A DNA stretch of 51,398 bases. It comes from Yersinia thracica. Its GTDB lineage: Bacteria; Pseudomonadota; Gammaproteobacteria; Enterobacterales; Enterobacteriaceae. The notes below the pieces were generated by a model. That model ran no database searches. It was not told the origin of the DNA and saw nothing but the letters and a program-made list of their open reading frames with translations. The position numbers were made by a program, and so were the translations under genes. Shown piece by piece: positions 11,682-22,460 of the stretch. Positions within the stretch are counted from its first letter, which is position 1; each line of letters begins with the position of its first letter. The stretch spans positions 1-51,398 of the forward strand of contig NZ_CABHXX010000101.1 in the NCBI RefSeq assembly GCF_902170565.1, read 5' to 3'.

Positions 11682-12375
11682 TCAAATAATTTGCCGATGG
11701 CACTGTGTCTCTAACAGGTTATCGAACTTACCAAACAGATTTTTATAAATCGCATCCCGCCACACCGATAGGATACGATATCCGACAGAGGAGTATCCGC
11801 GATCCCTCCCCATTGATATATTAAATCAAGTGCCTGACGACGGAGCGGCTGATTAATTAGAAAATTATCCGTTATTAATGGCACGAGAACTTTCCACCAG
11901 GCAATAAACAGATTGGCGGTATTACCTAAGGGTATTGTTCGCATATCTTCAACATTTAGTTTGGTTTCTGCAATAAGACGCTGCTTCATTTCCCAGGCTC
12001 GCACACCTATATCGGCACCGCCGTCACCAATATTGTCATAGCCTGAACTGAAGTTTTGGCGGTTATTGGGATTCCACCGAGTGCCGGATGAAGGATTAAG
12101 AATGCGGAGGGCTGCGCGGCGGGTAGAGCAACATCTTGCCATTGATTCTTTTCATCAATGGGAAATGTATTAACACCACCTTTTATATTAAGGTCAGGTA
12201 ATGTTCCGACCAGTGCCCAGCCAATATCACCATTCTTATCAGCAACAAACATATTTAGCGCGGGCATACCAGAGTTTGTCGCAACATCTATGGCCTGAGA
12301 TGCCGTAAAGTCTTGGTTAATCGTTAGAAAGTGTAGATCAATATATGTGGGGCCAATTCCATGGTCAGTATTCAT
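11682..12375 (-). pseudogene. Decayed penicillin-acylase-family hydrolase fragment
   Basis: Three reading-frame segments on the - strand together read as the middle-to-late part of a penicillin amidase (Ntn hydrolase) beta chain. Segment one (12375 to about 12100) has MFVADKNGDIGWALVGTLPD. A frameshift near 12100 leads to ILNPSSGTRWNPNNR and GDGGADIGVRAWEMKQRL, very typical of the family. A second frameshift near 11770 restores VWRDAIYKNLFGKFDNLLE before a stop at 11682. The N-terminal part with signal peptide and catalytic serine is absent, as is the true C-terminus, so this is a double-frameshifted remnant. Its original substrate (acyl-homoserine lactone, penicillin or another amide) cannot be inferred. 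Confidence 0.8.
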
Positions 12376-12603: not shown

Positions 12604-13122
12604 CTATGTGAGTATCGTGATTGAAGGAAACTGCAAATGATGCATAAATTCGCGTAAAATCAGTAAACGTGCGGCAAATTCATTATCTGCGGGTATCCCC
12701 TCAGAGGCTGCCGGTCTGCCCATCATAACCGCAGCTAGCCGGTCAAACAGCCGCTCAACAGATTCCAGTGACATCACTATTTCCGCTTGCATGGGTAAAC
12801 CCGCAAGTTGTGCAATTTCGGCTATATAATGATCGGTGGTAATCAATTGTGAGGTTTTATTCACAGCAGAACTGATTCTAATCACTTCATCTTCAACCAC
12901 CATAATGGCGGTTTCCATCTCATCTGCCGTGGGGGGATTATGTTTGAAATAACTCAACGCAACATGATTCGAGCCAACAGTAAGAAGCTGTTCAGAGAAA
13001 ATTATGTCAGAATTATCGGTGATCACCGTTGTCGATTCATGACCAATAGATAGCAGCGTTATTAAACAATTGCCATCGATAGTGGCGCGAACATGTTCAT
13101 ATTCCGCTTGAATGTTATTCAT
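12604..13122 (-). CDS. Hypothetical protein, 172 residues
   Basis: I do not recognise this protein. It is soluble-looking, with no signal peptide or TM helix. It has an alternating hydrophobic pattern (NCLITLLSIG near 18, SDIIFSEQLLTVGS near 38), an acidic helix (TADEMETAIMVVEDEVIRI) and a helical C-terminus. ATG 13122 is preferred to a TTG at 13191 because AAGGCGG lies upstream and the added residues look non-coding. It is divergent from fetM across 174 bp that hold a perfect FNR box, so the two genes may share control. The 228 bp between it and the acylase remnant hold only a small hairpin (GGCGC-TTAC-GCGCC near 12565). Confidence 0.65.
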   Translation of the reverse strand: MNNIQAEYEHVRATIDGNCLITLLSIGHESTTVITDNSDIIFSEQLLTVGSNHVALSYFKHNPPTADEMETAIMVVEDEVIRISSAVNKTSQLITTDHYIAEIAQLAGLPMQAEIVMSLESVERLFDRLAAVMMGRPAASEGIPADNEFAARLLILREFMHHLQFPSITILT

Positions 13123-13214
13123 CACTAAACCGCCTTGTTCATTGCTATTACTGTCTCTTATCTTGCGGGATGCGCCGCATTTTTTAAACAAAAATTCAAA
13201 AGACTAAATATTTT

Positions 13215-13228
13215 TTGATACGGATCAA
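13215..13228. promoter_or_regulatory. Perfect FNR box in the fetM promoter region
   Basis: TTGAT-ACGG-ATCAA at 13215-13228 matches the FNR consensus TTGAT-N4-ATCAA at every position. If centred at -41.5, transcription would start near 13263, and TTAATG at 13251-13256 sits where the -10 box should be, 34 bp before the fetM ATG. A CATTATCA half-site resembling half of a Fur box follows at 13268-13275. This suggests oxygen-regulated, FNR-activated expression of fetM; it could also affect the divergent gene. Confidence 0.75.
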
Positions 13229-13296
13229 GACACATTTCCGTTGTTTAGTGTTAATGTTAATAAATCTCATTATCAACTTCATGTGCGTCACACATT

Positions 13297-15234
13297 ATGC
13301 GAATTTGGCACAAGTTTTTTCTGCTTTGCTGCTGTTGGTGGCTATCCAGTTCTATGGCGTGGGCGACGCCAGATTATCAGCAGTGGAACAATGATATCCA
13401 ATCCCGCCTTGATAAAACCTCTCAGTTGTATCAACAGCAGAATAGTGATGAGGCTCGCACCACGGTGCAAATGGCGTATTTTGAAGTGTTTGAGAATCTG
13501 GAAGGGCCGATTCGTATCAATATTTCGGCGCAGAAAAGTTATCAAATGGAAACCGCTTTTGGTGAAATCCGGCGCATGATCGGTGAGGGGAAACCGCAAG
13601 CCGAGGTTGATAATAAAATTAACTGGCTGAAAGGTGAGTTAACCGCCGTGCTGCCAGTCCTGACTGATGGGCATAAACTGACCGCCGAACAGCAGCATGC
13701 TGCGTATGAAAATAGCGATATTGCGCTCTACTGGCAGCAGAGTTTCAAGATTATCGATGACTTATTGGCGCAGGCTATCAGTGAATACCAAGAGGGTAAA
13801 TTTGCCGCCGCCAGCCAAAGTGTGCAGCAGGCGCACTATCTGGGGTTTAAAAACTCTGAAATGGAGATGTCGGTGCGCGGGAATCGCTCAGCGCAACAAG
13901 CGGCAGCGATTAATCAACAATTTACCGCTCTCATCGATTTAACCAGCAAACCCGACCAAATAACAGAAGTTGCTTACCGTGTCACCGGGTTACTTCAGAC
14001 CATTGAAGATACACTGCCGGGCTTACCGACGACGCGCGAACAGCAACAAATTAGCGCCGATCAGCCTGTTGTAGGGCAATCTTCTACATCAAACGCTAAC
14101 CCCGATGGGCAGGTGAATGCCGACTGGGCGGCGGTTTCGAGCAAAATAAATCAGGCGATTACCCATGCCATCAGTCAGTACCAGAATGGGCAAACCACGC
14201 CAGCAATGATGGCCGTTCAGGATACCTATTTTGATTTATTTGAAGCCAGTGGCATGGAGAATAAAGTTGGCTCGCGCGATGCTGCGTTTAAATCAACATT
14301 AGAAGGTCATTTCACCCGTTTAGTTAGTTTGATGAAAGCCGGCCAGCCAGTTGAACAGTTACAAACAGAAGCTGCCGCCTTGCAAAAAGACTTGAGCAGC
14401 GCGGTCGAGATGCTCGGGGGCGGGGATGAAACTGATTGGAGCCTGTTCATTTACAGCCTGCTTATCATTGTCCGCGAAGGGCTGGAAGCCTTGCTGATTG
14501 TGGCCGCTATTATCGCCTATCTGGTCAAAAACAATCATCACGATAAATTGCCACTGATTCGCCAATCTGTCGTGGTGGCTTTAATTGTCAGTGTGTTAAC
14601 GGCCTTTGTCTTCCAATGGTTATTTGCCAATTCAGGGCAAAGCCGTGAGTTACTGGAAGGCTTCACCATGATGATTGCCGTGGTGATGCTGTTCTCCATG
14701 AGTTATTGGCTACTATCAAAAACAGAAGCACGCCAATGGAAAGCTTATTTGGAGGGGAAATTCTCCAAGTCACTCAGCAGTGGCTCAATGATAGGGCTAT
14801 GGCTGACCAGTTTCCTGGCGGTATATCGCGAAGGCGCTGAAACTGTCCTGTTCTACCTGGCTTTAATGGGTGACGCCAGCACAACCAGCGGCCATTTATC
14901 TATTTTGGCCGGTTTTGGCGTTGGCTGCATTATCTTGCTGCTGGCTTATCTGGTGATGCGTTTTACTGTCGTCAAATTGCCGCTTAAACCTTTCTTTATG
15001 TTTACCGGCGGCTTTATGTACCTGATGGCATTTGTGTTCGCCGGTAAGAGTGTTCTTGAATTGATTGAAGGCAAATTATTTGAGCCAACATTGCTACCCG
15101 GCGTGCCAGAAATTAGTTGGTTGGGGATTTACCCCTATCTGGAAACCTTGATTCCTCAAGGAATACTGCTGATTGCCGCGTTGGTTGCGCTGTGTGTCAT
15201 GCAGCGGCGTGGTCGCGCTATTTCGGCACAGTAA
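13297..15234 (+). CDS. fetM: FTR1-family iron permease (FetM)
   Basis: Inner-membrane iron permease working with the periplasmic P19 protein. The 645-residue product has a signal peptide (cleavage after about AWA at 23) and a long periplasmic domain (about 24-380, two helical repeats each starting with a DYQQW/NADWAAV-type stretch). A seven-helix FTR1 domain follows. Both iron-binding REXXE motifs are present: R393-E-G-L-E397 and R511-E-G-A-E515. The start has no strong Shine-Dalgarno sequence, but a later start would remove the signal peptide. It is the first gene of the locus, with fetP 173 bp downstream after a tandem repeat. The gene order matches the E. coli fetMP and Campylobacter P19 loci, so the symbol is used. 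Confidence 0.88.
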   Translation: MRIWHKFFLLCCCWWLSSSMAWATPDYQQWNNDIQSRLDKTSQLYQQQNSDEARTTVQMAYFEVFENLEGPIRINISAQKSYQMETAFGEIRRMIGEGKPQAEVDNKINWLKGELTAVLPVLTDGHKLTAEQQHAAYENSDIALYWQQSFKIIDDLLAQAISEYQEGKFAAASQSVQQAHYLGFKNSEMEMSVRGNRSAQQAAAINQQFTALIDLTSKPDQITEVAYRVTGLLQTIEDTLPGLPTTREQQQISADQPVVGQSSTSNANPDGQVNADWAAVSSKINQAITHAISQYQNGQTTPAMMAVQDTYFDLFEASGMENKVGSRDAAFKSTLEGHFTRLVSLMKAGQPVEQLQTEAAALQKDLSSAVEMLGGGDETDWSLFIYSLLIIVREGLEALLIVAAIIAYLVKNNHHDKLPLIRQSVVVALIVSVLTAFVFQWLFANSGQSRELLEGFTMMIAVVMLFSMSYWLLSKTEARQWKAYLEGKFSKSLSSGSMIGLWLTSFLAVYREGAETVLFYLALMGDASTTSGHLSILAGFGVGCIILLLAYLVMRFTVVKLPLKPFFMFTGGFMYLMAFVFAGKSVLELIEGKLFEPTLLPGVPEISWLGIYPYLETLIPQGILLIAALVALCVMQRRGRAISAQ

Positions 15235-15261
15235 TATTTCCGTTTAGCCATTGTCTCGGCT

Positions 15262-15336
15262 TAGCAATATCGCAACTAGCAATATCGCAACTCGTAATAT
15301 CGCAACTCGTAATATCGCAACTCGTAATATCGCAAC
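15262..15336 (+). repeat. Five tandem 15-bp repeats between fetM and fetP
   Basis: Two copies of TAGCAATATCGCAAC (15262-15276, 15277-15291) are followed by three of TCGTAATATCGCAAC (15292-15306, 15307-15321, 15322-15336). Units differ only in the first four bases. Just after them, CCGGCAT-G-ATGCCGG forms a palindrome at 15345-15359. The array lies in the spacer 28-102 bp past the fetM stop and could vary in copy number by slippage. There is no spacer structure, so it is not CRISPR. Confidence 0.95.
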
Positions 15337-15407
15337 ATAGTGGCCCGGCATGATGCCGGTATGAATAACGAAATGTACTTATCATTTGATACCTGAGGGT
15401 GTGCTAC

Positions 15408-15935
15408 ATGACTATGAAGAAAACGATTATTGCCAGCAGCATCATGGCCAGCATTTTTGCAGCACCGGCTGCCTTTGCCTTTAAAGAGTACCCAGCGGGT
15501 GAACCTATCAAAATTAATGATATGGAAATTGCTGCGGTTTACTTACAGCCGATTGATATGGAACCTCGCGGTATGGGCTTGCCAGCAGCGAAAGCCGATA
15601 TCCATTTAGAAGCAGATATTCACGCCACTGAAGGCAATAAGAACGGTTTTGGCGCTGGTGAATGGATGCCGTACCTGACTATTGCCTATACCCTGGTGAA
15701 TACGGATACTGGCGCTAAACAAGAAGGCACCTTTATGCCAATGGTGGCTAGTGATGGCCCACATTATGGCGCTAACATCAAAATGATGGGCGTAGGCAAT
15801 TACAAAGTTACCTATCATATTAGCGAGCCATCCAAAGCAGGTTTGCATCGCCATACCGACAGCGAAACCGGTGTCGGCCGCTGGTGGAAACCCTTTGATG
15901 TGAGCTACGACTTTAAATACACCGGTCTGAATTGA
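15408..15935 (+). CDS. fetP: Periplasmic P19-type iron/copper-binding protein (FetP)
   Basis: Secreted metal-binding partner of FetM, 175 residues. A signal peptide ends at PAAFA-FKEYP. The mature part has the P19/Tpd immunoglobulin-like fold and its metal-site residues: Met in DMEPRGMG, His in LEADIHA, MPMVASDGPHYG and HRHTDSETGVGRWW. P19 proteins bind Cu and Fe at a Met/His site and help present iron to the FTR1 permease. The ATG at 15408 has GAGGG 8 bases upstream; an inner ATG at 15414 is possible. A strong terminator follows, separating fetMP from the six downstream genes. Confidence 0.92.
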   Translation: MTMKKTIIASSIMASIFAAPAAFAFKEYPAGEPIKINDMEIAAVYLQPIDMEPRGMGLPAAKADIHLEADIHATEGNKNGFGAGEWMPYLTIAYTLVNTDTGAKQEGTFMPMVASDGPHYGANIKMMGVGNYKVTYHISEPSKAGLHRHTDSETGVGRWWKPFDVSYDFKYTGLN

Positions 15936-15942
15936 TAACAAT

Positions 15943-15977
15943 AACCGCGATGATTGAAACAGTTATCGCGGTTTTTC
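15943..15977 (+). terminator. Terminator/attenuator after fetP
   Basis: AACCGCGAT (15943-15951) pairs with ATCGCGGTT (15965-15973), followed by T-rich TTTTTC. It has the classic intrinsic form, yet six co-directional genes of the same system start 96 bp later. It may therefore act as a partial terminator that leaves fetMP mRNA more abundant than the downstream part. Confidence 0.85.
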
Positions 15978-16072
15978 TTCATATTGAACGGTCAGATAAA
16001 GGGTGTTATCCGTTTTCTGTAAAGTTGAGCAGTGATAACTGGCAGGTGTTGTGATTCCTCCAAGGTGTGCTG

Positions 16073-17476
16073 ATGAGTTACTTTTTTGTTTCCGTATTAC
16101 AAGCTTTTTTACCCGTGGCGTTGTTACTGGGGCTAAGTTGGGCGGTTAGGCCCGCGCCTGCACTAAATCGGGTCGTATGGATAACTATACTCATGGTGGT
16201 CTTGGGAATGTGGGCCGGAGCCCATTACCCTAAATCGCAACAATTGCAGTTAGCTCTGGCAGGGGTTCAACTCCTCGCATTGCTATTATTCTTATTAAGT
16301 CAATTTACTCCTCGTCGCTCATTAGGCTATTGCTGGCAAGCTTTGTTGGTCTTGGGCGCCGCCTTTAATTGGGGAAATAACCCCAATCTGGGGGCCTTTA
16401 CCAATACTCACGTGATCAATACCGATTTGCTGCTCAATTTGGCAGCCATTGTGGTGGCATTCACTTGGGTAATCTTCTGTGCGGTATTATTGCTGATGAT
16501 GATTAGGCAACTGCCGCGTGGTCGCTGGCCATTGTTAACGCTGCTAACGTTCTTGCTGATTTTGCCACTCAGTGGCGATGCAATCCTGCTGTTGATGAAG
16601 TTACAGGTGTTGCCATTAACCAAATCACTGCTCAGTTATGTTGCTTTAGTCACCAATGGGCATGCCTGGTTGAGCTACCTTTGTGCGCTATTGTTGGCGA
16701 TAACAACTCTGTGTTATTTAATGCCGTTGCGCCGTGCCAGTAAAGTGGTCGCCGGAAACTCAGAACCCATTGCCCATCGCAAGGCACTGGCAGGTTATCG
16801 TAACGTACGCAGAGTTTTTATTTTCGCCTTACTCGCCTGGATTGTGGTCGCTGGTGCCCAATTTTATTGGGATAAAGTCGCCTCTCAACCGCCTCAATTA
16901 TCTGAAGCTTTACCCGTCACACTCGCCGCCGATGGTTTGGTGCATATCCCTGTCGAGCAAGTACGGGAGGGTAAATTACACCGCTTTGTCTGGGTGGCTG
17001 ATGATGGTAAAGCTGTTCGCTTCTTTATTATCAACCGCTATCCTGACCGTTTGCGTCTCAGTGTGGTTTTTGACGCCTGTTTATTATGTGGTGATCAGGG
17101 CTATGTGATGGAGGGCAATCAGGTCATTTGTGTTGCTTGTGCGGTGCATATTTTCATTCCGTCTATTGGTAAAGCCGGAGGATGTAACCCGATCCCGCTG
17201 GAAGATTGGAAAAGTGATGATAAAGAGTTGGTCATTCCCAAAGCTTCTCTTGAGGCGGGCGTTAATTATTTCACGACCGTGATTACCTTAGATGTGATTG
17301 ATCCAGTTGATAAAACGCACCTGACCAACCAAAAGGCCGAGTTCAAATATAGCTATGGGGATAAAACCTACTTCTTCTCATCCGAGGCCAATTATAATCG
17401 TTTCCGCGCACATCCGGAGCAATTTGTCATCCCAGTTATCGGTGCTGAAGACCATGACTCGCAGGAGAACCCATAA
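16073..17476 (+). CDS. DUF2318 membrane protein of the P19 iron locus
   Basis: Integral membrane protein, 467 residues. About eight hydrophobic helices fill residues 1-260; the remainder is extracytoplasmic. That domain has the DUF2318 cysteine pattern C336-x2-C339, C353-x2-C356 and a further C371 (GGCNP), suited to binding a metal or Fe-S/heme-like centre. It ends with a YHS-like metal-binding stretch (KYSYGDKTYFFSSEANYNRF). Start ATG 16073 follows AAGGTG. The stop is 2 bp before the next permease gene. In Campylobacter the equivalent gene also follows p19. A role in electron transfer or iron handling at the periplasmic face is an inference. Confidence 0.8.
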   Translation: MSYFFVSVLQAFLPVALLLGLSWAVRPAPALNRVVWITILMVVLGMWAGAHYPKSQQLQLALAGVQLLALLLFLLSQFTPRRSLGYCWQALLVLGAAFNWGNNPNLGAFTNTHVINTDLLLNLAAIVVAFTWVIFCAVLLLMMIRQLPRGRWPLLTLLTFLLILPLSGDAILLLMKLQVLPLTKSLLSYVALVTNGHAWLSYLCALLLAITTLCYLMPLRRASKVVAGNSEPIAHRKALAGYRNVRRVFIFALLAWIVVAGAQFYWDKVASQPPQLSEALPVTLAADGLVHIPVEQVREGKLHRFVWVADDGKAVRFFIINRYPDRLRLSVVFDACLLCGDQGYVMEGNQVICVACAVHIFIPSIGKAGGCNPIPLEDWKSDDKELVIPKASLEAGVNYFTTVITLDVIDPVDKTHLTNQKAEFKYSYGDKTYFFSSEANYNRFRAHPEQFVIPVIGAEDHDSQENP

Positions 17477-17478
17477 TT

Positions 17479-18771
17479 ATGCTGTGGCGAATGCTCAAGC
17501 AGTCTTGGTTCAACAATGTCCGGCGTAAGTCGCTGGCCGTATTTACGGTGTTTCTGGCCGCCGGGCTTATCTCTTCACTGTTGGCGGTTTCGATAGACAT
17601 TGGCGATAAAATGTCCCGTGAACTGAAGTCCTATGGCGCCAACATTCTGATTGAACCCGCCGGTCAAGTGGCATTGCCCTCACTGTTTGGTGAGAAAAGT
17701 AACCCGCTCACAGGGCAGGATTTTTTGGATCAGGCCGAATTACCCAATATTAAAGACATTTTTTGGCGTAATAACATTGTCGGTTTTGCCCCATTGCTGA
17801 GTGGTGAAACCGAGGTCAATGGTCAGGATATTCCGCTATTAGGCACTTATTTTAATCAGCCCGTTGATGTGCCTGATGAAGAGGACTATCACACCGGTCA
17901 GCAAATTATCAGCCCCTATTGGCAGGTGACTGGTGACTGGCCACAAGAACCGGTCAAACCTGATGCCCAAGAGGTACAGGCTTTATTGGGTAAGCAGCTC
18001 GCACAGCAAACAGGTTGGAAAATCGGTGATGAGTTAAACCTCAAGGGGGCATCTGGCCCGCTGAAAGTGAAGATAAGTGGCGTGCTAAGCAGTGGGGGTG
18101 AAGAGGAGGGGCGGCTCGTGTTGCCGCTGGCCGCCGTACAATCGCTGCTTGGGTTGCCGGGGAAAGTCCAGGCTATCAGGGTCTCGGCCCTGACGGTGCC
18201 GGAGAATGAATTATCGCGTAAAGCGCGCGAAAATCTTGAAGCCCTCAATGCCGAAGAATATGACTTATGGTATTGCACTGCCTATGTATCTTCCATTGCA
18301 CACCAATTAGAAGAGGCAATATCTGGTGCCGTGGTTCGGCCTATCTGGCAAGTCGCCGCGTCAGAGGGACTGGTGATTGAAAAAATACAGCTATTGTTGG
18401 TGGTGGTCACATTGGCGGCCCTGATTGCTGCGGCCATGGGGATAGCATCACTGATGACCAGCACGATTATGGAACGGGCTAAAGAAATTGGTTTGATGAA
18501 AGCCTTGGGCGCTCGGCAGTGGCAAATTTTGATGCTGTTTTATCTTGAAGCCGCAATCAGTGGCTTGATTGGCGGTCTGGCGGGGTGTTTAGCTGGGTGG
18601 GGGTTGGCAAAAACTATCGGTTTGATGTTGTTTGGCGCTCCACTGAGTTTTGCCTGGATGGTCGTACCATGCGTGCTGGTTATTTCTGTTTTGATTGCTG
18701 TGATTGGGACGTGGTTCCCCGCTCGGCGCATTGCTCGTCTTTATCCGGTGGAGGTGCTTTATGGCCGTTAA
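17479..18771 (+). CDS. FtsX/MacB-like ABC permease 1 of the fet locus
   Basis: 430-residue inner-membrane permease. One TM helix at about 20-40, a periplasmic MacB_PCD-type domain (about 42-300) and a C-terminal FtsX domain with three helices (about 305-425) are visible. The conserved motif MERAKEIGLMKALGA lies after the second helix. Such permeases work as pairs with an ABC ATPase and are usually mechanotransmitters or exporters rather than classical importers. It begins 2 bp after the DUF2318 gene and overlaps the next permease by 11 bp. Substrate unknown; the iron context is conserved in Campylobacter. Confidence 0.85.
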   Translation: MLWRMLKQSWFNNVRRKSLAVFTVFLAAGLISSLLAVSIDIGDKMSRELKSYGANILIEPAGQVALPSLFGEKSNPLTGQDFLDQAELPNIKDIFWRNNIVGFAPLLSGETEVNGQDIPLLGTYFNQPVDVPDEEDYHTGQQIISPYWQVTGDWPQEPVKPDAQEVQALLGKQLAQQTGWKIGDELNLKGASGPLKVKISGVLSSGGEEEGRLVLPLAAVQSLLGLPGKVQAIRVSALTVPENELSRKARENLEALNAEEYDLWYCTAYVSSIAHQLEEAISGAVVRPIWQVAASEGLVIEKIQLLLVVVTLAALIAAAMGIASLMTSTIMERAKEIGLMKALGARQWQILMLFYLEAAISGLIGGLAGCLAGWGLAKTIGLMLFGAPLSFAWMVVPCVLVISVLIAVIGTWFPARRIARLYPVEVLYGR

Positions 18772-19918
18772 TCATCGGGCTACACAGCATAAAGGGCTGG
18801 ATGGCATGTTCTGGCGCTTAGTATTACGAGCGCTGCGTCTGCGCATGCAGCGGGTCAGTGTTGTATTCGCAGCATTGACCGTCGGCGCAGCGATTGTCAC
18901 GGCAATGTCAGCCGTTTATTTTGATATTAATGCCAAAATGAGCCAGGAATTGCGCACGTTCGGTGCAAATTTCTACATCGGCCCAGGGCACGGCAACTCG
19001 TTTGAACAAGGGCAGTTTCAGCCCATTATTGATGCTGCGCCGAAAGGGCTTATCAATGCCTCAAGCCCCTATATTTATGGGATGGCACGCACTGAGCTGG
19101 AAAAAGTCGTGCTGATGGGGGTGTGGTTTGAATCTTTACAACAATTAGTCCCTTATTGGCAAGTGACGGGTAACTGGATTGGTGTCAGTTTTGATGACCG
19201 TAATGCCATGATTGGCGTCAAACTGGCCGAGCGTTTGCACGTTAAAGTCGGCGATACCATCACGTTGGTAAATGGGAGTGAGCGGCAGCGTTTACAAGTT
19301 AAAGGTATTGTAGAAGCCGGTGATGCCACCGATAACATGTTGATTATCAATCTGGAACTGGCGCAGAAATGGCTGAATCAACCGGGGCGCATCAGTAATG
19401 CATTGCTGAGTGTCAGCAATGATGTGGGCCAGGTCGAAACCTTTGCCAGCCATCTTCGTGAGCAATATCCGAGTCTTGAGATCAGGCCAATTCGTAAGGT
19501 TTCCGCCTCTGAAGGGCAGGTTCTCGACAAGATAAAAGGGCTGATGGGGCTGGTCTCAGTGGTTATCCTCATTCTGTCATCGCTGTGTGTCAACACCACG
19601 TTAATGGCAATCGTGGGCGAGCGTTCGAAAGAGTTCGCTTTACAAAAAGCGCTGGGTGCCAGTGGCGGCGATATTATTCGCCAGATGTTGACTGAAACCT
19701 TGATCATCTCGCTGGCGGCAGCCGTTTGTGGCGCGTTGCTAGGTTATGTGCTGGCGCAGGTATTGGGGCAAACCGTCTTCAGCGCGGCGATTGCTTTGCG
19801 CGCACCGGTATTGCCGCTAACGTTGATATTGTCATTGTTAGTGGCCGCAGTGGCGGCAATTGTTCCCACTCGACGAGCTATTCATATTGAACCTGCTAAA
19901 GTCTTGAAAGGAGAGTAG
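18761..19918 (+). CDS. FtsX/MacB-like ABC permease 2 of the fet locus
   Basis: 385-residue paralogue of the preceding permease with the same plan: N-terminal TM helix (about 35-55), periplasmic domain, and three C-terminal helices with the FtsX signature GERSKEFALQKALGAS. The ATG at 18761 is chosen because GGTGGAGG lies 7-8 bases upstream and it falls inside the end of the previous gene; the longer reading to 18704 only adds shadow sequence. The two permeases probably form a heterodimer driven by the ATPase encoded next. This protein lacks the longer periplasmic insert of permease 1. Confidence 0.84.
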   Translation: MAVNHRATQHKGLDGMFWRLVLRALRLRMQRVSVVFAALTVGAAIVTAMSAVYFDINAKMSQELRTFGANFYIGPGHGNSFEQGQFQPIIDAAPKGLINASSPYIYGMARTELEKVVLMGVWFESLQQLVPYWQVTGNWIGVSFDDRNAMIGVKLAERLHVKVGDTITLVNGSERQRLQVKGIVEAGDATDNMLIINLELAQKWLNQPGRISNALLSVSNDVGQVETFASHLREQYPSLEIRPIRKVSASEGQVLDKIKGLMGLVSVVILILSSLCVNTTLMAIVGERSKEFALQKALGASGGDIIRQMLTETLIISLAAAVCGALLGYVLAQVLGQTVFSAAIALRAPVLPLTLILSLLVAAVAAIVPTRRAIHIEPAKVLKGE

Positions 19919-19921
19919 CAA

Positions 19922-20635
19922 ATGACATCGCCACACACATGGGTGCAACCTGAATACACCACGGATGCGGTTATTGAAACTCGGCATTTATACAAACGTT
20001 TTGGGCAGGTGACGGCGCTGGAAGACATCAATATCCGCATTAATCGTGGCGAATTTGTCGCGATTATGGGGGCATCGGGTTCAGGTAAAACCACGTTAAT
20101 GAATATTTTAACTTGCCTCGATACCGTGAGTGAGGGGCAGGTATTGCTCGATGGCATTGACGCCGCGGGTCTTGATGAAGAAGGGCGCAGGAAATTCCGC
20201 GCAGATAAGATTGGGTTGGTTTTCCAGCAATTCCATCTTATTCCTTATCTGACTGCGCTGGAGAACATTATGTTGGCGCAGCATTATCACAGTGTGGTGG
20301 ATGAAACTGCTGCCCGGCAAGTATTAGAACAGGTGGGGATGACGCCACGTATGGGCCATTTACCTAGTCAGCTTTCTGGCGGTGAGCAGCAGCGGGTATG
20401 TATCGCGCGCGCACTGGTCAATCAGCCGCCCATTATTTTTGCTGATGAGCCTACCGGTAACCTTGATGAGGAGAATGAACAGCGGGTATTAGATTTGCTA
20501 AATCATATCCATCAGCAAGGTAGAACTATTGTTATGGTCACTCATAATCCGGATTTAGGCTGTGTTGCTGACCGGATAATCCGGCTCCAGCATGGTAAAT
20601 ATCTTAAGGAAGAGAGTCGGCATCATGTGGCGTAA
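19922..20635 (+). CDS. ABC transporter ATPase (LolD/MacB type) of the fet locus
   Basis: 237-residue nucleotide-binding subunit. Walker A GASGSGKTT (about 43-51), Q-loop VFQQFHLIP, signature LSGGEQQRV, Walker B IIFADEPTGNLD and H-loop MVTHNPD are all intact, so it should be active. The sequence type is that of ATPases serving FtsX-like permeases. It starts 3 bp after permease 2, and its end overlaps the thioredoxin-gene start by 11 bp. It should energise the two permeases; what they move or signal is not known. Confidence 0.9.
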   Translation: MTSPHTWVQPEYTTDAVIETRHLYKRFGQVTALEDINIRINRGEFVAIMGASGSGKTTLMNILTCLDTVSEGQVLLDGIDAAGLDEEGRRKFRADKIGLVFQQFHLIPYLTALENIMLAQHYHSVVDETAARQVLEQVGMTPRMGHLPSQLSGGEQQRVCIARALVNQPPIIFADEPTGNLDEENEQRVLDLLNHIHQQGRTIVMVTHNPDLGCVADRIIRLQHGKYLKEESRHHVA

Positions 20636-21122
20636 TCAAATAAAAATATTGAGTTTATGCGCTTTACTGTTGTTGCTGAGTGCTTGTAAGCAAGAAGAAG
20701 TGGCTGTGGGAGAGGCCGCGCCTCCATTGGCAGCTTATGATCTGCAAGGCAAACCCGTGGCACTCGAACAATGGAAAGGCAAACAGGTTTACCTCAATTT
20801 TTGGTCAGCAAACTGTGGTGGCTGTTTGGCTGAAATGGCCGCTTTGGATAAACTGAGCCAACAATATCAGCAGGATATCGTGGTGGTGGCGATTAATACT
20901 GATCCAGAACAGGTGGATATCAATCCGCTGCTGGCACAGCGTAGTATCAGTTATCCCGTTATTCGCGATCAACTGGGTATCACTCAGGAGCGCTATCAGG
21001 TTATTGGCACGCCGACCTCTTTTTTGATTGACCGCAACGGCAAAGTCACTGAGTTACATCAGGGGGCACGTAACGAAAAAGATCTGGCCACATTGTTCCA
21101 ACATTGGGCGGCGGGAGCATAA
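20625..21122 (+). CDS. TlpA/ResA-like thioredoxin lipoprotein of the fet locus
   Basis: 165-residue membrane-anchored thioredoxin. The N-terminus is a lipoprotein signal (LLLLSAC, acylated Cys about residue 20, next residue Lys). A TlpA-type domain follows with active site C64-G-G-C67 in SANCGGCLAEM and the cis-proline segment GTPTSFLID. CGGC differs from the more common CxPC and should have a different redox potential. ATG 20625 lies within the ATPase end and follows GGAAGAGAG. The stop shares one base with the cytochrome start. It may reduce thiols or cytochrome-linked sites in DUF2318 or P19; this is inference from gene order. Confidence 0.85.
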   Translation: MWRNQIKILSLCALLLLLSACKQEEVAVGEAAPPLAAYDLQGKPVALEQWKGKQVYLNFWSANCGGCLAEMAALDKLSQQYQQDIVVVAINTDPEQVDINPLLAQRSISYPVIRDQLGITQERYQVIGTPTSFLIDRNGKVTELHQGARNEKDLATLFQHWAAGA

Positions 21123-21436
21123 TGAGAATCTTACTGCTGGCTGCATGCACCCTGGTGTTTAGCGCCACCTCCCAAGCCGCCACTGACGGTGAACATATCT
21201 ATAAACAAACGTGTTCAAGTTGTCATGGCCGTTTGGCCGATCGAAAAGGGCTGGATAAAGCGCCGCCACTCATATCGCTATCCCGTGATCAAATCGTCGA
21301 TGGCCTGACTGCACGACGTGACGGCAAGATTGTCGGCAGAGGCAATAAGGCCAAAGCACATCTGACCGACGATGATATACAAAAATTGGCAGACCATATA
21401 GAGAGCTTAAAAGGAGTTAAAGCTAAAGCTCCGTGA
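21122..21436 (+). CDS. Small periplasmic cytochrome c of the fet locus
   Basis: 104-residue single-heme cytochrome c. A signal peptide (cleavage after about SQA at 19) precedes heme motif C31-S-S-C34-H35. A class I fold follows, with the C-terminal helix DDDIQKLADHIESL. No methionine occurs after the heme motif, so the usual Met sixth ligand is missing; H80 (AKAHLTDD) is one candidate replacement. The start overlaps the thioredoxin stop by one base (TAATG), marking it as the last gene of the operon. It may move electrons to or from iron during uptake. Confidence 0.88.
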   Translation: MRILLLAACTLVFSATSQAATDGEHIYKQTCSSCHGRLADRKGLDKAPPLISLSRDQIVDGLTARRDGKIVGRGNKAKAHLTDDDIQKLADHIESLKGVKAKAP

Positions 21437-21590: not shown

Positions 21591-22460
21591 ATGGGAAATA
21601 CATCAGCCTTGCTTTGCTATAAAAAATTGCCGGTCTGGGATAGTGCTGGCGTACCCGCGATGTTTCGTGAAAAGCACAATACTAAAGCCGGGACGTGGGC
21701 CAGGCTGACTCTCCTGAGTGGAGAGATGGACTTTTTAATCCTTGATGAAGCGGGTAACACCCTGGAAAGGCACTCATTTTCTTGTGAGCATCAACCCCCT
21801 TTTATTGAGCCGCAAGTCTGGCATCGTATTGCCGCCTGTTCAGATGATCTGCAATGCCAGCTCAGTTTTTATTGCACGCCGGAAGATTTTTATCATAAGA
21901 AATACAATTTAACCCCAACACATTCCGAAGTGATTGAGGCGGTGAAAACGGTCAAGCCGGGTAAAGCACTCGATTTAGGCTGTGGTTCCGGACGTAATTC
22001 GTTGTATCTGAATTTATTAGGTTTTGATGTGGCCGCGCTGGATAAAAATGGTGAAAGTATCAGTCGGTTACAACAAATCATTGAGCAGGAAGAACGGCAA
22101 AACATAGCGGTCAACACTTATAATATCAATGAAGCTAGTCTGGATAATCGCTACGATTTTATTCTCTCGACAGTGGTGTTGATGTTCCTACAGCCAGAGA
22201 GAATTCCGCATATTATCAATAATATGCAAGAGTGTACCTTACCCGGCGGTTACAATCTGATTATCTCGGCCATGTCTACTGATGACTTCCCTTGTACTGT
22301 ACCTTTCTCTTTCACCTTAAAATCGGGTGAGTTAAGTCATTACTATAAAGATTGGGACATCATTAAATATAACGAAGATGTTGGGCAGCTACATAAGACC
22401 GATGAGCAAGGTAACCGGATAAAACTGCGTTTTGCGACCCTGCTGGCGCGAAAAAACTAA
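21591..22460 (+). CDS. tehB: TehB-like SAM-dependent methyltransferase, long form
   Basis: 289-residue cytoplasmic methyltransferase linked to tellurite resistance. Residues 1-95 form the DUF1971/TehB N-terminal cupin-like domain ([20 protein letters not shown]). Residues 100-289 are the methyltransferase with SAM motif [15 protein letters not shown] (about 125-139) and acidic motif II near LDKN. The two-domain form is like Haemophilus TehB; E. coli TehB has only the methyltransferase. TGAGGA lies upstream of the ATG. It stands alone with its own gap on both sides; no tehA is present here. Physiological substrate is uncertain. Confidence 0.87.

Follow-up and report, generated by a model that had tools for sequence, protein, structure and literature searches.

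A fetMP-type iron locus of Yersinia with a predicted Rieske-fold domain in FetA and a conserved FNR-type dyad beside a Fur-like box

The window analysed here, a stretch of 51,398 nucleotides (nt) from Yersinia thracica (contig NZ_CABHXX010000101.1), contains an eight-gene locus that is almost certainly a member, from a Yersinia outside the Y. pestis complex, of the published iron system known as fetMP-fetABCDEF, fls or flp. We lean slightly towards a model in which its products form a FetMP importer assisted by a periplasmic electron relay (FetA, FetE and cytochrome c) and by an ATP-binding cassette (ABC) machine of the MacB/Lol type. The chief addition of this work is a Rieske-fold reading of FetA, to which we add a composite promoter upstream of fetM and a hairpin between fetP and fetA. 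As the initial annotation had stated, all eight genes are present on the plus strand (13297-21436, Table 1) and belong to the families named for them, in agreement with Pfam and NCBIfam matches. An FTR1 permease, P19, an FtrD-like/YHS protein, two FtsX-type permeases and an ATPase follow one another in the order of fetMP-fetABCDEF, with a thioredoxin in seventh place, and the nearest solved structures to FetP are 3nrp (2.3e-96) and 3lzl (P19; 4.1e-63). The genes touch or overlap from fetA onward (fetB/fetC, fetD/fetE and fetE/cytochrome), and two long intergenic gaps separate fetM from fetP and fetP from fetA. FetM shares 86–97% identity with the other 20 Yersinia copies and 86% with the copy attributed to Y. 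similis, a member of the Y. pestis/pseudotuberculosis complex, and this places the window outside that complex.

The operon itself is already known, in Yersinia too: the Campylobacter jejuni cluster 1649-1656, later named fetMP-fetABCDEF, was found in 33 species including Y. pestis CO92 (PMC6083913; papers are given by PubMed Central (PMC) number and cited for the passages available). The C. jejuni locus (CJJ81176_1649-1656) shares with ours the first seven genes, their order and their domain make-up (PMC10783030, PMC6083913), and the P19 of the window is a relative of the solved structure. The fet-flp locus of Y. pestis, fetMP-fls of Salmonella and fetMP of uropathogenic Escherichia coli are clusters of the same kind (PMC5519574, PMC7285068). 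A growth phenotype and Fur control are reported for C. jejuni in these papers, growth and a putative Fur box for Salmonella (fetMP-fls of plasmid pUO-StVR2; PMC7285068), iron repression for Y. pestis, and iron or Fur control for both the Y. pestis and the E. coli fet loci (PMC5519574, PMC7285068). The initial annotation had left it open how the downstream genes help P19 and the permease; their importance had already been demonstrated by deletion in C. jejuni, where fetA to fetD are needed under iron limitation and fetE and fetF are redundant (PMC10783030).

To see how stable the gene set is, we scanned a species-wide genome collection once, using an alignment of FetA, and kept 80 of 127 confirmed loci; with the window these make 81 rows. 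The genes fetM-P-A-B-C-D-E were matched in this order in 78 of the 81 rows, some copies being broken; the three exceptions are two loci cut by contig ends (L116 and L124) and one without a FetE match (L135). Cytochrome c was matched in 44 rows and had no match in 37, one of these cut by a contig end. The eight genes proposed as one set are therefore better described as a constant order of seven followed by an optional cytochrome. Independent occurrence of the downstream families, which would have spoken against the set, was not seen for the FtrD-like family: it exceeds the Pfam cut-off in two of 274 genomes of the class and in five of 398 genomes of the phylum (the two included in the five), and in all five it sits within fetM-P-A-B-C-D-E. 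P19 occurs more often, in 14 of the 274 class genomes; 12 of these 14 gave no match to the FetA family, nor did the 12 stretches taken around their P19 genes match FetA, FetB, FetC or FetE. By eye, several of the 12 stretches show cupredoxin-sized and NapH-like frames as in FtrABCD, which suggests that P19 and the permease are a core that works with either of two distinct redox modules. FtrABCD, from Bordetella and Brucella, likewise has P19 and an FTR1 permease, but it has the cupredoxin FtrB and FtrD, presumably NapH-like, where this locus has FetABCDE; neither a cupredoxin FtrB nor a NapH-like FtrD was found among the eight genes.

In E. coli, fetM-fetP was matched in 830 of 5426 complete genomes, and 844 of the 853 places are on plasmids. 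The locus of E. coli plasmid pJJ1886_5 (L164) shares with the window seven genes and likewise has a dyad and a Fur-like site, but it has a hypothetical protein after the thioredoxin gene, where we find the cytochrome, and its dyad is three mismatches away from the FNR consensus that is perfect here. A gene annotated as Na(+)-translocating NADH-quinone reductase subunit C, presumably of the FMN-binding type, lies directly before fetM in that plasmid (5793-6608).

The function of FetA was called unknown in a 2023 paper. Its FtrD-like (DUF2318) domain was modelled at a predicted local distance difference test (pLDDT) score of 91.7, and the model matches Rieske-fold chains in 50 of 50 cases among the matches listed, over 89-103 aligned residues; judging from this model, a Rieske fold is likely. 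Five cysteines of the periplasmic part (residues 283-455), at positions 336, 339, 353, 356 and 371 and arranged as CxxC-x13-CxxC...C, are invariant in 80 of 80 FetA copies, and on balance the cysteines of the domain probably have a metal or redox role. Several observations weigh against the Rieske reading. Rieske clusters are held by the ligands Cys-x-His ... Cys-x2-His, and the two defining histidines are absent from all 80 copies, which instead show the all-Cys pattern; for this reason we do not file the domain as a Rieske protein. Pfam recognises in FetA the FtrD-like and YHS families alone, with no Rieske hit. When the FetA profile was compared by hhalign with 30 Rieske domains, a score at least as high came from 10 of 100 column-shuffled profiles; with the Cys columns kept, 7 of 100 shuffles were as high or higher, and the reversed profile scored higher. 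Compared with Rieske ferredoxins and the Rieske proteins of cytochrome bc1, FetA is thus alike in predicted fold, over the length given above, but has four cysteines and neither histidine ligands nor significant sequence similarity. Our literature search found no paper giving DUF2318 or FetA a Rieske fold. If the reading is true, FetA would offer a periplasmic Rieske-like domain with cysteine-only ligands, and its role becomes directly testable with one purified domain.

Among the remaining machine proteins, MacB and Lol are the nearest solved relatives of FetBCD, and this likeness to MacB/LolCDE speaks for a mechanical action on periplasmic partners rather than for import. Cys266 and His275 of FetB are invariant in 80 of 80 copies; the cysteine (codon 18274-18276, in a WYCTAY stretch) lies between the first and second hydrophobic stretches, so that the predicted topology puts it in the periplasm, where it might be a thiol or metal contact of the ABC machine. 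FetE keeps its CxxC and its lipobox cysteine in 76 of 76 copies, and the cytochrome keeps CxxCH in 44 of 44. Class I c-type cytochromes combine CxxCH with a distal Met ligand; an alignment of 30 copies shows no conserved Met column other than the start Met, whereas Lys78 is invariant, so that His/Met ligation of the heme is improbable and its potential may be low. A cytochrome in eighth place had already been noted in general terms (PMC6083913).

The perfect FNR box reported upstream of fetM in the initial annotation is there, and besides TTGATACGGATCAA the window has no other perfect match to the FNR consensus (TTGAT-N4-ATCAA). Taken alone, such a box is weak evidence: the window contains three sites with at most one mismatch for 3.06 expected, and of the 23 perfect boxes genome-wide, 14 of the 21 inspected fall inside open frames of at least 100 amino acids (aa). 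A chance origin was rejected on conservation and not on the match as such. Within the genus, a perfect box occurs in 21 of 25 genomes, precisely those with a full fetM, the other four having no full-length fetM match; neither half-site departs from the consensus in any of the 21 congeneric loci, whereas the spacer varies (ACGG, ACTG, GCTG, GCGG, GAGG), and a related dyad occupies the same place in other genera, which together raise the box above chance. A Fur-like 19-mer, overlooked in the initial annotation along with the fetP-fetA hairpin and the optional nature of the eighth gene, begins 35 nt downstream of the dyad start, the dyad centre lying about 28 nt ahead of it.

Across genera, promoters were counted in 77 of the 81 rows, four (L089, L092, L109 and L124) being left out because FetM is short or missing. 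The best FNR site has zero, one, two or three mismatches in 12, 15, 33 and 17 loci, for 0.1, 1.1, 17.2 and 46.2 expected from shuffles (12.2 with four), and the best Fur site upstream of fetM has at most four mismatches in 40 of the 77 loci against 0.1 from shuffles. With the 58 loci that have a Fur window of at most five mismatches as anchors (the other 19 were excluded), the start of an FNR/CRP-type core TGAY-N4-RTCA falls inside a single 6-nt window, some 35 nt ahead of the Fur-like box, in 52 of the 58, a descriptive figure because this looser core was drawn after seeing the sites. Without Yersinia the count is 43 of 49, and none of 109 windows farther from the Fur box shows this clustering. 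Of the 77 loci, 67 carry the core within 130 nt, whereas 200 shuffles gave 0.9 on average and never more than 4; eight of the ten loci without it in that range are from Pasteurellaceae. A fixed FNR pattern at offset -35 from the Fur window gave a mean of 4.48 mismatches against 7.12 (sd 0.49) over 126 offsets, and 5.31 against 7.12 (sd 0.44) without Yersinia. These counts are of sequences, not events, and many loci are related. We are confident of a conserved FNR-type dyad accompanied by a Fur box; its position about 35 nt before the Fur-like box across genera is new in this analysis, and the fixed spacing offers a concrete candidate for a two-input promoter in many enteric genera.

A consensus promoter scan of the region found no -35/-10 pair. 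Class II placement of the dyad is plausible, as is a -10 inside the Fur-like box; with the dyad centred at -41.5, the Fur window would cover approximately -13 to +6. By analogy, FNR activation and Fur blockage might meet on one promoter, following the logic of feoABC of enteric bacteria, for which Fnr and Fur control is known in E. coli and Shigella (PMC5519574), although the Feo transporter is unrelated to the FetM system.

The left half of the dyad varies by lineage, reading TTGA in Yersinia, Budviciaceae, Edaphovirga and Rodentibacter, GTGA in Pectobacterium and Brenneria, and ATGA in Citrobacter, Klebsiella and the E. coli plasmid. By the specificities of FNR and CRP, the TTGA form alone is a clear FNR site, and FNR is encoded in this genome. 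The TTGA form occurs in 31 of 35 dyad-bearing loci with the cytochrome and in one of 31 without it; with only three and two changes on the tree, from which L116 was left off since its contig ends before the eighth gene, this association is not statistically independent. In a Pasteurellaceae-type locus (L174), a TTGA...ATCAC dyad lies farther off, about 102 nt before fetM, as in the Rodentibacter loci.

A real possibility, if not the reading we prefer, is that CRP or a different regulator of its family binds the dyad, or that the dyad is a relic, with oxygen having no control and Fur as the sole working switch. The GTGA and ATGA half-sites suit this, and so does Y. pestis, in which Fet-Flp is repressed by iron aerobically and microaerobically and none of the four Fe2+ transporters is repressed by aerobic growth (PMC5519574); the main text of a comparative study of the FNR regulon, in its available passages, has no entry for the permease or P19 (PMC1805755). 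Perfect FNR half-sites in all 21 Yersinia loci and in Edaphovirga, at a spacing suiting class II activation, argue the other way, and the locus of Y. similis (L081), a relative of Y. pestis, has a perfect FNR box. Moreover, cultures kept static are not strictly anaerobic, and an effect of FNR could be hidden by Fur repression. As to the use at low oxygen read from the box in the initial annotation, the Y. pestis literature speaks against an oxygen effect (PMC5519574), and oxygen control of the locus is not established. Elsewhere, more than 30 iron genes go down in the anaerobic transcriptome of Y. intermedia and yfeX is the sole iron gene to go up, the passages available not naming fet genes (PMC3792023); iron systems of Pectobacterium atrosepticum and Dickeya mostly decrease without oxygen, fet not being named in the 12 of 18 places covered in that paper (PMC3349551). 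Y. pestis Y2368 was up in iron-starved cells at 37 C, and its authors then saw no evidence of Fur control (PMC2835676). The word FNR is absent from the two C. jejuni papers (PMC10783030, PMC6083913), and our literature search found no paper on FetMP with an FNR binding site.

Between fetP and fetA, a G+C-rich stem of 14 pairs followed by a T run (-19.1 kcal/mol, z -6.0) has the form of an intrinsic terminator. Over 21 Yersinia loci, 96.1% of cells in its 11-pair core are paired; one pair is changed on both sides against 0.9 in shuffles, which is no excess, and nine cells are doubly changed against 3.3. A hairpin beating all ten mononucleotide shuffles is found in this gap in 66 of 80 loci, compared with nine of 69 for the fetM-fetP gap, and its sequence turns over across families while a hairpin persists. 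By eye, many hairpins outside Yersinia have no T run, so the shared function may be stabilisation or processing of the mRNA rather than termination. Either way, fetMP could be raised above the machine genes, a possible route for one promoter to yield much P19 and permease and little machine. The single eight-gene unit of the initial annotation, sound as to its gene set, is thus too simple with a hairpin at this point in most loci, and the cytochrome is unmatched in 37 of 81. The 15-nt repeats of the fetM-fetP gap are, by eye, fewer or absent in other Yersinia.

According to the model that we slightly favour, P19 (FetP) would pass iron to the FTR1 permease FetM, and the downstream products would form a periplasmic electron relay through which iron changes oxidation state at the permease, no direction being implied. 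Four cysteines of the periplasm-facing Rieske-fold domain of FetA (CxxC-x13-CxxC, replacing the usual Cys2His2) may hold an Fe-S or iron centre or a disulfide pair, and FetE, by its thiols, and the small cytochrome c where present, by its heme, would trade electrons with FetA. FetBCD would have a mechanotransmission role, ATP driving a conformational change of periplasmic partners and not iron transport. Transcription would start behind the FNR/CRP-type dyad and be blocked by Fur over the -10, and the hairpin after fetP might let fetMP exceed fetA-cytochrome. The periplasmic iron redox machine suggested in the initial annotation gains support as an idea, its electron path being one that we infer. 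Among the points against such a relay, the cytochrome is dispensable across genera, its place is taken by a second thioredoxin in C. jejuni, and FetE and FetF of that species look more like oxidases (PMC10783030).

Tentatively, the relay could instead be reductive as published (PMC10783030), FetE/FetF, FetA and FetBCD giving the reducing power that converts Fe3+ to Fe2+ ahead of FetM or while the iron crosses it. Seventh-slot proteins of the FMN-binding or thioredoxin kind point to reductants (PMC6083913, PMC8238504), but FetEF promote oxidation in extracts (PMC10783030), and in other systems FTR1-type permeases are believed to operate together with a ferroxidase (PMC11966278). We consider it unlikely, but well within reason, that the Rieske-like domain is metal-free, with disulfides recycled by FetE, FetB Cys266 taking part in the exchange and a thiol-driven switch loading FetM. 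The nitrite reductase small subunits 3c0d and 4aiv, proteins with a Rieske fold and no cluster, are among the structure matches of the domain, FetE is a thiol-disulfide protein and Cys266 is invariant; still, the five invariant cysteines suit metal binding at least equally. Quite improbable is a further reading in which FetA is the acceptor of an oxygen-independent ferroxidase and receives the electron released as Fe2+ is oxidised at the FTR1 permease. FetA would then hand that electron, by way of the cytochrome c occupying the FetF slot, to anaerobic respiration, an oxidase-dependent permease would work without oxygen, and the association of the TTGA letter with the cytochrome gene would be explained. 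It is very hard to believe that FetBCD, for all their kinship to MacB and Lol, are an exporter or lipoprotein extractor unrelated to iron and merely co-located, since they are matched beside fetMPA in 78 of 81 rows and deletion of fetB, fetC or fetD in C. jejuni impairs low-iron growth, which largely refutes it (PMC10783030).

Table 1. Positions of the genes and other features of the locus in the window.
Feature	Position	Strand	Basis
FNR-type dyad, perfect FNR consensus TTGATACGGATCAA	13215-13228	+	conserved in 21/21 congeneric loci; related dyad elsewhere
Fur-like box overlapping presumed -10 region	13250-13268	+	5 mismatches to 19-nt Fur consensus
fetM, FTR1-family iron permease	13297-15234	+	PF03239 2.2e-61; REGLE/REGAE motifs at residues 393 and 511
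15-nt tandem repeats in fetM-fetP gap, lineage-specific	15266-15340		four overlapping 30-nt copies spaced 15 nt, AATATCGCAACTCGT
fetP, P19 periplasmic iron-binding protein	15408-15935	+	PF10634 5e-70
Hairpin then T tract between fetP and fetA, intrinsic-terminator-like	15943-15973	+	folding, conservation
fetA, polytopic membrane protein with periplasmic FtrD-like (DUF2318) and YHS domains	16073-17476	+	PF10080 1.1e-28, PF04945 5.6e-16; structure model
FetA residues 288-392, predicted Rieske-fold domain, CxxC-x13-CxxC...C	16934-17248	+	predicted fold; five Cys in 80/80
fetB, MacB/LolC-E-type permease, invariant Cys266	17479-18771	+	family matches, conservation
fetC, second MacB/LolC-E-type permease	18761-19918	+	family matches
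fetD, MacB/LolD-type ATPase	19922-20635	+	family matches
fetE, TlpA/ResA-like thiol-disulfide lipoprotein, CGGC	20625-21122	+	family matches; conserved CxxC and lipobox Cys
Small c-type cytochrome, one CxxCH, no conserved Met	21122-21436	+	family match, aligned copies

Upstream of the locus, a minus-strand frame of 195 aa (12604-13191) points away from fetM and matched neither Pfam nor NCBIfam at E 0.001. At 11711-12375, two open frames that overlap on the minus strand resemble fragments of one broken protein, possibly a penicillin-acylase-like enzyme. Downstream, a tehB-type methyltransferase gene (21591-22460) follows the cytochrome on the same strand, and a tehB match stands behind the cytochrome in 19 of the 20 other Yersinia loci, the exception (L038) ending at a contig end.

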